Assembly: GCF_002020805.1 (NCBI RefSeq)
Contig: NZ_MPRJ01000018.1
Span: 1 to 49,388, forward strand
Length of the DNA: 49,388 bases
Reading direction: 5' to 3'
DNA from: Solemya velesiana gill symbiont
GTDB taxonomy: Bacteria > Pseudomonadota > Gammaproteobacteria > Chromatiales > Chromatiaceae
A program made the translations under genes and the position numbers. Of the stretch, positions 33,548-37,771 are shown in pieces (positions within the stretch are counted from its first letter, which is position 1; each line of letters begins with the position of its first letter). The notes beneath the pieces were generated by a model, which was not told the origin of the DNA, did no database searches, and was given only the letters and a program-made list of their open reading frames with translations.

Positions 33548-35368
33548 ATGTTTGACCATCGCCCCTCCGCTGGCAGCCTGGCCCTCTACAAGATCAGGCC
33601 GGCAATCGTTACTGCCGTAAGCGACAAAATCGATATCACCCTGGACGGGTGCAAGAGCAAACGGGTACGGCCCAAGGATATCGCCATACTCCATCCCGGC
33701 CCCCTGAAGAGCCTGGGGGACCTCGGTGATCCCGCAGGGAATGTAGACGAGGCGTGGGCCCTCCTGGAGGGGGGAGAGACCCACCTGGAGGAGTTGGCGG
33801 AGCTGGCCTTTGGCGATTACACGCCGACCACGGCATGGGCAGCCTGGCAACTGGTGGCCGAAGGGCTCTACTTCGAAGGAACCCCGGAAAATATCAAGGT
33901 ACGGTCGGAAGCCCAGATCGCAGAGGACAGGGCGCAATGCGAAGCCAAAGCGGCCGCGGAGCGCGACAGGGAGACTTTCCTGGAGCGCCTGCGGTCCCGT
34001 GCCCTCGAAGAGGGGGACAGGGAGCGCCTTTCAGAGGTTGAGCGCATGGCCCTCAAGGTGAATGACAGGAGTCGCATCCTTCAGGCACTGGGGCACCAGG
34101 AGAGCGCCGAGAATGCACACCGCATGCTGGTGGATGTCGGCTACTGGGAAGCGACTCACAACCCCTATCCCGCGAGACAGTCACTGGTGGAAGTCGATCC
34201 CGACCACTCCCTGCCGGAACTGCCCCGGGAGGAGCGGCTCGACCTGACCCACCTGGCGGCCTATGCCATTGACGACGAGGGGAGCCAGGATCCGGACGAT
34301 GCCATCAGTCTCGACGGGGATCGAATCTGGGTGCATGTTGCAGATGTTGCAGCCCTGGTCACGCCCGATTCGGAACTCGACCTGGAGGCCAGGGAGAGAG
34401 CGGCCAATCTCTACATTCCCGAGCGCATCGTGCACATGTTGCCACCGGCAATCACCGATATCCTTGGTCTTGGCCTGCAGGAGATCTCTCCGGCGCTCTC
34501 CTTCGGGTTCCGGCTCGACGAACAGGGTGAGCCCCAGGAGTTGGAGGTCGCCGCCAGCCTGGTGAGAGTGAGTCGCCACAGTTATGCAGAGATCAATGAA
34601 CGGATGGGAGAAGAGCCATTCGCCACGCTGTATCAGCTGGCGGAACGCTACCGTAACCGGCGCAAGGTTGCCGGCGCAGCCTCCATCGACCTGCCCGAGG
34701 TCAGTGTCCGGGTCAATGATGAAAACATAAGAATAAAACCCCTGAAACGCCTGGATAGCCGCCAGATGGTCACCGATGCCATGCTGATGGCGGGGGAGGC
34801 GGTGGCGCGCTACGCCATCGTACGGGATATCCCCGTGCCGTTTGCCACCCAGCCTCCGCCCGATGCCAGGGCGGAGCCCGAAGGCATGGCACAGATGTAC
34901 GCATACCGGCGCCAGATGAAACCCTCCCAGTCGAAAGCGGTCGAGGAGGCCCATTCCGGCCTGGGCCTGGAAGTGTATACCCGCACCACCAGCCCTTTGC
35001 GGCGATACCTCGACCTTGTCACCCACCAGCAGCTGCGTGCCCATCTCAAGGGTGAAACCCTGTTGGCGGTCAGTGACATCACGGAGCGTATCGGTGCCAC
35101 AGACGGGACGGGTGGCGCGATACGTCGTGCAGAACGTTTCTCCAACACCCATTGGAAAATGGTCTACCTGCAGAGAAACTCCCTGTGGCAGGGGACGGGG
35201 GTCGTGGTCGAGATGAACGACAAGCGGGCCACGGTCATTATTCCGGAACTGGCCATGGAGACCAGGGTGAGGCTGCGCCGGGAAGTACCCCTCGACCAGG
35301 AGATCAGGCTGGCTGTCAGGGAGGTCGACCTGGCGGATCTCACCGCTTGGTTCAGGGTGATTGAATAG
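33548..35368 (+). CDS. RNB-family 3'-5' exoribonuclease (RNase II/R-like)
   Basis: The catalytic RNB domain starts near residue 230. The four metal-binding acids are D242, D248, D250 and D251 in AIDDEGSQDPDDAIS, with the same spacing as in E. coli RNase R and RNase II. TSPLRRYLDLVTHQQL gives the conserved arginine-rich segment near the end, and a small C-terminal beta domain follows. The first 230 residues are unlike E. coli RNase II: a short beta barrel, then a long charged helical stretch (about 115-180) with no clear cold-shock pair. This layout resembles the smaller RNB proteins first described in Deinococcus. The 606 residues would degrade RNA processively; the substrate is not evident. 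Confidence 0.9.
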   Translation: MFDHRPSAGSLALYKIRPAIVTAVSDKIDITLDGCKSKRVRPKDIAILHPGPLKSLGDLGDPAGNVDEAWALLEGGETHLEELAELAFGDYTPTTAWAAWQLVAEGLYFEGTPENIKVRSEAQIAEDRAQCEAKAAAERDRETFLERLRSRALEEGDRERLSEVERMALKVNDRSRILQALGHQESAENAHRMLVDVGYWEATHNPYPARQSLVEVDPDHSLPELPREERLDLTHLAAYAIDDEGSQDPDDAISLDGDRIWVHVADVAALVTPDSELDLEARERAANLYIPERIVHMLPPAITDILGLGLQEISPALSFGFRLDEQGEPQELEVAASLVRVSRHSYAEINERMGEEPFATLYQLAERYRNRRKVAGAASIDLPEVSVRVNDENIRIKPLKRLDSRQMVTDAMLMAGEAVARYAIVRDIPVPFATQPPPDARAEPEGMAQMYAYRRQMKPSQSKAVEEAHSGLGLEVYTRTTSPLRRYLDLVTHQQLRAHLKGETLLAVSDITERIGATDGTGGAIRRAERFSNTHWKMVYLQRNSLWQGTGVVVEMNDKRATVIIPELAMETRVRLRREVPLDQEIRLAVREVDLADLTAWFRVIE

Positions 35369-35482: not shown

Positions 35483-35680
35483 ATGACCGCAGAGCTTGAG
35501 GTCAAACCCCTCAGCACATCCGAGCTGCAGGGACCTTCCCAGGACTTTACCGATTACTGCGAAGCGGAGTTCGAACGCCGCCGCAACTCCGGTGAACCCA
35601 TCGAAGAGGACGAATACAGGGAAGCGATGGAGATGACCCTTCGCCGTCTACGTGCCCTGGAAGACGAGGGTTACGCATGA
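35483..35680 (+). CDS. Small acidic protein encoded with the membrane ATPase (65 aa)
   Basis: I do not recognise a family. The 65 residues are acidic and helical-looking in the second half (DYCEAEFERRRNSGEPIEEDEYREAMEMTLRRLRALEDEGYA), with no membrane segment or cysteine pair. GGAGAG lies five bases before the ATG. Its stop overlaps the start of the next gene as ATGA, so it is translationally coupled to the ATPase. A small partner or regulator of that ATPase is the natural inference. Confidence 0.8.
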   Translation: MTAELEVKPLSTSELQGPSQDFTDYCEAEFERRRNSGEPIEEDEYREAMEMTLRRLRALEDEGYA

Positions 35681-37584
35681 TCATTACCGATATCACCGCA
35701 CGGGATGTTCTCAAGTACGACGCCCTGGATCTTAAAGGCCTGCCCGAGTCCGGCGTGATCGCCATCGGCGGTCCCAACGAGTCCGGCAAGAGCACGATCG
35801 GCGAGACGATCTGTTTCGCCCTGTTCGGACGCACCTTTTCACTGGAGCCCAGCGAACTCGTGAAGATGATCCGCTGGGGTGAGAACCACTGCTCCGTCAA
35901 TCTCTGTTTCAAATCAAGTGACCAGACCCACTACGAGGTGGCCCGTTTTCTGGATCGCGACGGCAACCACGGCGTGCGCCTCAACTTGGTGGGAGAGTCC
36001 GAGAATCCCATCGCCAGGGGTGTCGAAGATGTGGACAACGCCATCTACGACATCCTGGGTTATGGCTACGATGAGTTCATCGAATCGTTCTACCTGGCCC
36101 AGCGGGAGATCACCACGCCTCATCCTCACAGCTATGCCGTGAAGGCGATGGCCGGGATCACCTCCCTGGAGTATGTCTCCTACGAGTTCGAAGAAGAGGT
36201 CCGCCACGAAGAGGCGGCCATCAGCGAACTGGACCAGGAGATCGCCGACATCGACCAGGAACTGGAGGATCTTGCCATCGACCCCGGCCAGTTGAATGCC
36301 CTGGAGAGTGAGCGTGAACAACTGGTTGCCTCAGAGAGCCAACTCCAGGGGGAGATCGAGGAACTGGACGCTGCGTCCACCGCTTACCAAGATGCAGACC
36401 CCAAGATAAAGTCGGCCACCTCTGCACGGGGAATAACGCGCTTTTTCCGTTTCATCTCCTTGTTGCTGACCCTGATTGCCGGGGCCAGTTGGGGCCTGCT
36501 GACCCGTATGCCCGAGCACCCCTATGCCCAGCAGCTCGATGGCCTGCTGCAACAGCAGATCCCCCAGTGGGGAGCCCAGTATCTGCCCTGGTTGCTCTAC
36601 GTCGCTATAGGGTTCGGCATTCTGCTTGTTTTCCTGATGATCCGGGGTGGTGTCCTCACCAGCCGCATTACCAGGCTGAACCAATCTGCGACTGAGCTCT
36701 CAGAGAAATTGTCCGCCATTTACGAGGCAGTGCCTGAGACAGAACAACAGGTGGAATCGGAAGACGATACCTCTGAAGAGGAGGACTTGCCCCCCGCCGA
36801 TACCGAGATTGCCGCCATCTGCCAGCGCATTGCTGCCGCCCAGGCTTCACCCTTCGAAGTGCGGGATTCCGTCGGCCGGGAACTGGCCCGGATGCGACGT
36901 GAGCGCCAGCAGCAGCAAGAGCGTCTCATCAAGCTTGAGCAGGAGATCTGGAGCGAGAAGGATCGCCTGTCCAAGGCAGAGAAGCTCAACGACGTGGAGC
37001 AGGCCCTGGAACAGAAGATGGAGGAGCACCGTCAGGAAATCCGTCAGCGGGAACTGGCGTCCGAACTGCTGGCTGGTGCCACCAAGCAGCTCTCCCAGCG
37101 CTTCAATCGCGATCTGCGCGACCTGGTGGGGCGTACGCTGCCACTGTTCACGGATAACCGTTACGAACACCTGCAGATAGACGGGGACCTCACTGTCCGT
37201 GTCTTCTCCAACGAGAAACGGGATTTCATGGACTTGGAAGAGATCTCCAGCGGTACCCAGCGCCAGATCATGCTGGCGGTACGCCTGGTCCTCTCCCAGG
37301 AGCTGGTCAACAGCACCGTGGTGGGCAAGCAGTTCATCTTTCTGGATGAACCCTTTGCCTTCTTCGACCAGGAACGTACCCGCAGCTCACTCAAGGTACT
37401 GCCCGATCTCAGTGATGAGATCACCCAGGTCTGGATCGTGGCCCAGGAGTTCCCGAACGACCACGTCTTCGATCTGCCTATTACCTGTAATAGGGAGCAG
37501 CGTGAGTTGGTGACGGAGCAGCAGGTACTGGCTTCCGCGCCAACTGATCAGCCAATGCCGATTGGAGAAGAGACCCATTACTAG
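35677..37584 (+). CDS. Rad50/SMC-like ATPase with a central transmembrane hairpin
   Basis: The 635-residue protein has a split ABC-type head, as in Rad50, SbcC and RecF. Walker A is GGPNESGKST (31-40), the Q-loop is YLAQREI (139-145), the signature is EISSGTQRQIMLAV (522-535), and Walker B is FIFLDEPFAFFD (553-564). Charged helices at about 170-245 and 330-470 would form the coiled coil. In place of a zinc hook there are two hydrophobic helices, about 256-275 and 302-322, with a loop of about 26 residues. The head would sit in the cytoplasm on a membrane-anchored stalk. Bacillus YhaN is a comparable known design. No Mre11/SbcD nuclease gene is next to it, but an RNB exoribonuclease is. Role unknown. 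Confidence 0.88.
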   Translation: MIITDITARDVLKYDALDLKGLPESGVIAIGGPNESGKSTIGETICFALFGRTFSLEPSELVKMIRWGENHCSVNLCFKSSDQTHYEVARFLDRDGNHGVRLNLVGESENPIARGVEDVDNAIYDILGYGYDEFIESFYLAQREITTPHPHSYAVKAMAGITSLEYVSYEFEEEVRHEEAAISELDQEIADIDQELEDLAIDPGQLNALESEREQLVASESQLQGEIEELDAASTAYQDADPKIKSATSARGITRFFRFISLLLTLIAGASWGLLTRMPEHPYAQQLDGLLQQQIPQWGAQYLPWLLYVAIGFGILLVFLMIRGGVLTSRITRLNQSATELSEKLSAIYEAVPETEQQVESEDDTSEEEDLPPADTEIAAICQRIAAAQASPFEVRDSVGRELARMRRERQQQQERLIKLEQEIWSEKDRLSKAEKLNDVEQALEQKMEEHRQEIRQRELASELLAGATKQLSQRFNRDLRDLVGRTLPLFTDNRYEHLQIDGDLTVRVFSNEKRDFMDLEEISSGTQRQIMLAVRLVLSQELVNSTVVGKQFIFLDEPFAFFDQERTRSSLKVLPDLSDEITQVWIVAQEFPNDHVFDLPITCNREQRELVTEQQVLASAPTDQPMPIGEETHY

Positions 37585-37588
37585 CGCC

Positions 37589-37771
37589 ATGACCGATCGT
37601 TACGAAAGCTGTGCCTTCTGCAGCTTCATGCGCGGCCTCGCTTTCGGTGCCATAGGGGGCGGGGCTGCCGGCTACCTGGCACTGGGCATGGAGCGCAACC
37701 ACGCCATGATCGCCGCACTCTTCGGCGCTGTTGGGCTGGTTGGCTGGGTGACCCGAAAGCGCAATAAATGA
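37589..37771 (+). CDS. Small two-helix membrane protein with CxxC (60 aa)
   Basis: The product begins MTDRYESCAFCSFMRG, with a CxxC at C8 and C11. Two small hydrophobic helices follow (about 16-31 with a GAIGGGAAGY glycine zipper, and 37-54), then a basic end (TRKRNK). The ATG lies four bases after the ATPase stop, so it belongs to that operon. The nearest purine-rich site is 17 bases away, so translation probably depends on coupling. A TTG at 37562 would add nine residues but has no ribosome site. No known family; the CxxC could bind metal or be redox-active. Confidence 0.7.
   Translation: MTDRYESCAFCSFMRGLAFGAIGGGAAGYLALGMERNHAMIAALFGAVGLVGWVTRKRNK

Follow-up and report, generated by a model that had tools for sequence, protein, structure and literature searches.

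A Rad50/SMC-like ATPase with a predicted membrane hairpin and its 65-residue partner: a conserved gene pair found mainly in sulphur-metabolising bacteria

To which family does a Rad50-like ATPase belong when its coiled coil apparently ends in a membrane hairpin, and which of the genes around it are parts of the same system? These questions are raised by a locus of the Solemya velesiana gill symbiont that lies in a stretch of 49,388 nucleotides (contig NZ_MPRJ01000018.1, assembly GCF_002020805.1), which was analysed as a whole and is referred to here as the window. A first-pass annotation of this DNA had described a three-gene operon that consists of a 65-aa gene, an ATPase gene coupled to it by ATGA, and a gene for a 60-aa membrane protein with a CxxC motif that starts four bases past the ATPase stop; the coordinates, lengths, coupling, gap and CxxC motif are all borne out in the sequence (Table 1).

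Table 1. Features of the locus in the window, with positions on the forward strand
Feature	Position	Strand	Remark
RNase II-type exonuclease (RNB domain)	33548..35368	+	115 bp upstream of 65-aa gene
65-aa partner gene	35483..35680	+	predicted helix-loop-helix product
ATGA start/stop overlap, 65-aa gene/ATPase	35677..35680	+	translational coupling
Rad50-like ATPase, 635 aa	35677..37584	+	split ABC head, coiled coil, predicted membrane hairpin at tip
Walker A GGPNESGKST	35767..35796	+	residues 31-40
Q-loop Gln142 (YLAQRE)	36100..36102	+	Q in 121/125 homologues
N-terminal coiled-coil arm	36157..36438	+	residues 161-254, AF2 model
Transmembrane helix 1, predicted	36445..36501	+	residues ~257-275; conserved Trp272
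Short outside loop, predicted	36502..36585	+	predicted amphipathic helix 282-294; conserved P279, P296, W298
Transmembrane helix 2, predicted	36586..36642	+	residues ~304-322
C-terminal arm	36643..37086	+	coil 323-350, acidic linker ~351-374 (low confidence), helix from 392; arm to 470
ABC signature ISSGT	37243..37257	+	residues 523-527
Walker B FIFLDE	37333..37350	+	residues 553-558; D557, E558 in 125/125
Switch position Gln590, H-loop His replaced	37444..37446	+	aligned to Rad50 His; Q in 121/125
CxxC small membrane protein, 60 aa	37589..37771	+	lineage-restricted accessory, outside conserved core

A seed-based scan of 84,980 species genomes yielded 213 relatives of the ATPase, the best 80 of which were fetched; beyond Pseudomonadota, the breadth of the family was gauged by this one scan, through the best 80 of its 213 matches. 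All these 80 relatives come from Gammaproteobacteria, largely, from Sedimenticola, Thiodiazotropha and tubeworm symbionts, Chromatiales, Arenicellales and Thiohalomonas. The gammaproteobacterial neighbourhood set drawn from these best relatives comprises 80 loci with an intact ATPase ORF, that is, 79 fetched loci and the window. Among the best 80 of the 213 relatives, the homologous ATPase loci show 42-63% identity and are open at full length. Given 80 such loci, with the small gene alongside, neither the ATPase gene nor the 65-aa gene is a chance ORF.

The AF2 model of the ATPase (mean pLDDT 85) has a Rad50-type head. The motifs of a split ABC head that had been read from the window alone are indeed present and are conserved over 125 distinct homologues, where no substitution occurs at the Walker A lysine, the Walker B Asp-Glu, R90 or W67; the D-loop is represented by D564. 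A feature absent from the first-pass annotation is the glutamine at the switch (H-loop) position, Gln590. In ABC ATPases, loss of the switch histidine slows or stops hydrolysis, so that its replacement by a conserved glutamine would suggest a slow or regulated ATPase cycle. In structural searches with Foldseek and VIA-align, the top match is E. coli SbcC (6s85_D; Z 30.9, rmsd 2.9 over 343 residues); SbcC and archaeal Rad50 rank first, followed by SMC heads (Z 25-29). The only Pfam model that the ATPase passes is AAA_23 (PF13476), which represents the broad Rad50-like superfamily (53.3 bits against a gathering score of 27), and no NCBIfam equivalog fits, the best Rad50 model reaching 76 bits where 847 are required.

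Thus characterized, the ATPase can be compared with the known families. With Rad50/SbcC, it shares the ABC head fold with its motifs and the antiparallel coiled coil that connects the two halves of the head. However, a coil of about 90 residues with a membrane hairpin takes the place of the long coil with a zinc hook, the switch histidine is a glutamine, and the partner is a 65-aa helix-loop-helix protein rather than Mre11/SbcD. An Mre11/SbcD gene is not found adjacent to the ATPase gene either in the window, as had been noted before, or in any of the surveyed neighbourhoods. SbcD (TIGR00619) was not detected in the symbiont's own genome, which is 84% complete, nor in 25 of the 36 gammaproteobacterial carriers, and is present in the other 11; because SbcD occurs in some carriers and goes undetected in others, the pair apparently neither needs nor replaces SbcCD. 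The likeness to YhaN of the YhaMNO system is local: the two proteins share the signature region S-x-G-T-x-x-Q-x-x-L-A-x-R-L-A and the FD-x-x-R that follows Walker B, and the C-terminal half of the head resembles a YhaN in hhalign (E 5e-5). The YhaN domain of Pfam, AAA_27 (PF13514), nevertheless scores 14.5 bits on the ATPase, below the cut-off of 22, and a PF13514 search of the symbiont's genome gave no match. Unlike the ATPase, the YhaN compared, a gammaproteobacterial protein of 1164 aa and not that of Bacillus, contains no transmembrane segment, and proteobacterial YhaN genes adjoin a DNA repair exonuclease gene; at the surveyed loci, no YhaO-like Mre11-type gene is adjacent to the ATPase gene.

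With scores below the cut-offs and the partners missing, membership of the ATPase in either SbcC or YhaN was rejected, in agreement with the first-pass annotation, which had suggested that it might lie outside the known SbcCD and YhaNO systems. A related possibility is that the protein is a diverged SbcC or YhaN involved in DNA repair, with the SbcD or YhaO nuclease encoded elsewhere in the genome. The common fold and head, the local similarity to YhaN and the carriers that also possess SbcD are all compatible with this explanation. Nevertheless, we consider it very unlikely, in view of the profile scores that fall far under the equivalog cut-offs and under that of the YhaN domain, the failure to detect SbcD in the symbiont and most other carriers, the membrane hairpin and the glutamine switch.

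The comparison with SMC, condensin and MukB leads to a similar picture. The head fold is the same, and a small helical subunit at the neck would be a plausible kleisin analogue, but the coil is short, a membrane hairpin is predicted, and the hinge domain is absent; the stretch between the two arms, only about 66 residues, consists of the hydrophobic hairpin. The score of the SMC_N Pfam model, 38.6 bits, is below the cut-off of 40. Lamassu LmuB, MADS mad3, PbeC and other SMC-like ATPases of defence systems show weak profile and fold similarity to the head, in contrast to which the present ATPase is chromosomal, carries the membrane hairpin and has no effector gene among its nearest neighbours. 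Lacking the hook, the partner and the switch histidine of SbcC/Rad50, the profile match and YhaO of YhaN, and the hinge of SMC, the ATPase is a variant of the Rad50/SMC kind that lies outside these families.

The hairpin, which had been proposed to replace the zinc hook, holds up across the family: two hydrophobic segments are retained at the tip of the coil in 48 of the 49 distinct homologues, the exception (L064) showing a single segment at the threshold applied, and no CxxC zinc hook was found in the 635-aa sequence. In all 48, the cytoplasmic flanks are denser in lysine and arginine than the loop (mean 0.257 vs 0.042), which predicts that both halves of the head are inside and the loop of about 30 residues is outside. 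In and around the hairpin, W272, P296 and W298 occur in 105, 95 and 94 of the 125 homologues, respectively (~75-85%), and are better conserved than the adjoining coil; hence the hairpin probably does more than anchor the protein. The ATPase comes in two length forms, of about 600-650 aa and about 740-780 aa, with the ~100 additional residues of the long form located in the N-terminal arm, between the head and the hairpin.

In its model, the 65-aa protein folds into a helix-loop-helix, with helices at residues 18-36 and 42-61 and pLDDT of about 90 over residues 21-60. Its conserved core, F-x-x-Y/F-C-x-x-E-x-x-R-R-x-N-S...F-D...A...L..RL, includes F22, Y/F25, C26, E29, R32, R33, F40, D41, A48 and L56. 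There were no matches for this protein in Pfam, NCBIfam, PADLOC or PHROGs, and a Foldseek search with the model produced no significant match, as expected for two helices.

The first-pass annotation suggested a survey of whether this small gene travels with the ATPase, and across two classes it does. In the gammaproteobacterial set, the 65-aa gene lies directly 5' of the ATPase gene at 79 of the 80 loci, the remaining one (L036) ending at a contig edge, and 71 of these 79 have the ATGA junction. At all thirty loci fetched from the class search, the divergent long forms included, the small gene is upstream as well. An automatic pairing rule joined the two genes at 156 of 164 ATPase loci (~125 distinct proteins) from both classes, with a 4-nt overlap at 141 of the 156. 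Two loci left unpaired by the rule, L036 and L115, are contig ends; L060 reflects a miscalled start codon; L146 is the same place as L111, where the gene is present; at L161 and L162, the gene was recognized next to the ATPase gene by profile search, and at L167, it was located by hand. The one clear exception among the ATPase homologues examined is L149 (genome G221, family f105), without a recognizable homologue of the 65-aa protein. A different, basic ORF of 45 aa at this locus (L149:3124-3261:-) overlaps the ATPase start by 4 bases and may encode a diverged version of the partner or its replacement.

Searched for by its own profile, the 65-aa gene was detected in 33 of 369 gammaproteobacterial genomes, all of them among the 36 carriers of the ATPase and in every case beside it (Fisher p ~5e-44), and, in the second class, in 24 of 48 genomes, each time next to the ATPase gene. 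In none of these 417 genomes did the profile find the 65-aa gene without the ATPase. At the gene level, then, the ATPase has an obligate partner in the 65-aa gene, and this holds for two classes. Covariation between the two proteins (APC-corrected mutual information over 124 pairs, Neff ~88) provided no usable signal: residues 474-482 at the base of the coil recur among the top pairs, which, however, follow the clades. The evolutionary distances of the two proteins are correlated (r = 0.89), as co-inheritance alone would also produce.

The third gene of the proposed operon, although a genuine ORF, fared differently. The gene for the 60-aa CxxC membrane protein, which belongs to no database family, occurs at 15 of the 80 gammaproteobacterial loci, including the window, all from close, Sedimenticola-like relatives; C8 and C11 of the CxxC motif are invariant at these 15 loci, and the gene was not found in more distant carriers. 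Being absent beside most ATPase homologues, it appears to be a lineage-specific accessory or a bystander, and the hypothesis of a trio was rejected in view of this confinement to close relatives. The conserved core consists of two genes, the ATPase and its 65-aa partner.

The only constant neighbour of the ATPase gene, at the loci surveyed in both classes, is the 65-aa gene. Many Chromatiales-type genomes have an RNase II-like gene upstream of the pair and hrpB downstream; in other lineages, hslVU-like or unrelated genes are found upstream. The upstream enzyme raises the possibility that the ATPase cooperates with an RNase II-type exonuclease in RNA turnover at the membrane, and an RNB-domain gene is, indeed, located immediately 5' of the pair at about 30 gammaproteobacterial loci; in Bacillus, the genes are arranged in the order yhaM-yhaN-yhaO, which offers a comparison for such a partnership. 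Yet the RNB gene is missing in the Thiodiazotropha branch and in nearly all distant carriers (one occurrence among L132-L167), and in the window, where its 606-aa product is an exoribonuclease of the RNase II family that reaches no NCBIfam equivalog cut-off, an intergenic gap separates it from the pair. As a general rule, the partnership was rejected because the RNB gene is not kept in distant carriers, and we regard it as an extremely improbable account of the system. In the second class, at most loci (L150, L151, L159, L162 and related ones), the ATPase gene is followed on the same strand, often with an overlap or nearly so, by a gene whose product, about 300-390 aa long, is a putative solute-binding protein, secreted and possibly similar to PstS.

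When whole genomes were searched with the ATPase profile, carriers made up 36 of the 369 gammaproteobacterial genomes of an even draw (~10%), and a phylum-wide draw added one further class, with 33 of 48 genomes. We take this second class to be Magnetococcia, given that one of its members, G373, resembles Magnetococcus marinus MC-1. In a quick tree, Magnetococcia form a single clade (support 99) beside the long gammaproteobacterial forms. One genome of this class, G438, encodes two different copies of the ATPase, on contigs C69 and C75 (529 and 516 bits).

Such a distribution bears on the possibility that the pair acts against phages or plasmids as a conflict system of the SMC/Rad50 type, comparable to Lamassu, Wadjet or MADS, and recognizes foreign DNA at the membrane. 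When the nearest genes were scanned with PADLOC, the similarity found over the ATPase was weak (mad3, 8e-17; LmuB, 7e-13) and of the size expected of any Rad50-like head. No copy of the ATPase was found in the phage records searched; plasmids yielded three distant matches, at 26% identity, to an Arcobacter SMC-family ATPase and nothing closer; and IMG/VR contained one weak match. A mobile or phage element was accordingly rejected. The same searches count against a conflict system, as do the lack of an effector gene alongside, the chromosomal, housekeeping neighbourhoods and the clade-consistent inheritance in Magnetococcia, and we consider this explanation quite improbable.

The carriers are mainly sulphur-metabolising bacteria. 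Among Gammaproteobacteria, dsrA is present in 27 of 36 carriers vs 11 of 44 non-carriers (p = 1.3e-5, with kinship ignored and the non-carriers taken in list order) or, counted by family, in 14 of 17 vs 11 of 44 (p = 8e-5, kinship likewise ignored). In the second class, 43 of 48 genomes possess dsrA, which is too common there to discriminate carriers. We treat the enrichment as a lead only because it is confounded by shared ancestry and the non-carriers followed the order of a list.

What could such a protein pair do? Our tentative reading, to which we give somewhat less than an even chance, is that the ATPase is a membrane-tethered clamp of the Rad50 type that keeps DNA close to the inner membrane and carries the 65-aa protein on the base of its coil. 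The architecture behind this mechanism is well supported: a coiled coil that brings together the two halves of the ABC head, a tip predicted to cross the membrane twice at the place of the Rad50 zinc hook, and a co-translated helix-loop-helix protein as obligate partner. Upon ATP binding, two ATPases would pair by their heads and clamp nucleic acid, most probably double-stranded DNA, at about 10-14 nm from the inner membrane; this distance is estimated from a coil of about 90 residues, each contributing 0.15 nm. At the base of the coil, the 65-aa protein would bind and control opening, much as Mre11 binds Rad50 through a helix-loop-helix or a kleisin binds the neck of SMC. The conserved switch glutamine, by slowing hydrolysis, would make the complex a lasting tether, locked by ATP, instead of a fast motor, and with a nuclease subunit absent, the complex would hold or organise DNA, not cut it. 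The SbcC/Rad50-type fold of the head, its intact catalytic residues, the switch glutamine aligned to the Rad50 histidine, the conserved hairpin with its positive-inside bias, the constant partner and the carriers in which SbcD mostly goes undetected all argue for the clamp. It is weakened by the conservation of W272, P296 and W298, which a plain anchor would not need and which would suit a membrane-acting machine at least equally well, and by the difference of about 100 residues in one arm between the sub-families.

The main rival takes up precisely these residues. Under this alternative, the pair is an envelope machine in which closure of the heads is relayed via the coils to the hairpin and the outside loop and so acts on the envelope, in the manner of mechanotransmission ABC systems such as FtsEX or MacB, with nucleic acid uninvolved and the 65-aa protein acting as a cytoplasmic regulator. 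The modelled helices that run from the coil into the membrane, the retention of the tryptophans and the proline of the hairpin above the level of the adjoining coil, and the absence of nuclease linkage are compatible with such a machine. However, the head is of the Rad50/SMC rather than the transporter type, the outside loop is too short for a domain, the arm varies in length, and no envelope gene is constant nearby, so that we find this possibility doubtful, although far from negligible. Judging by the fold, DNA tethering appears to be better supported than a role in the envelope.

Among open-access full texts, we found no paper that describes such a Rad50-like ATPase anchored in the membrane, and with no named family found for it, the pair is an undescribed two-gene bacterial system, the smaller member of which is missed by annotation pipelines due to its size. 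If the DNA clamp is the correct reading, the pair might form a new branch among Rad50/SMC machines, that of an ATP-locked clamp set in the inner membrane and free of a nuclease, in which the hairpin stands in for the hook or hinge and the 65-aa protein for Mre11 or the kleisin; this is a possibility that we advance with considerable reserve. Rad50/SMC machines are otherwise described as soluble; such a branch, if real, would connect the chromosome directly to the membrane under the control of ATP, and it would be kept mainly by sulphur bacteria with dsr genes and by magnetotactic cocci. The way in which bacteria hold their chromosomes at the membrane or move them along it is an old open question, for which a membrane-built two-gene family with a minimal, co-expressible partner would offer a small system. 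In addition, the 65-aa partner defines a protein family that so far has no name.
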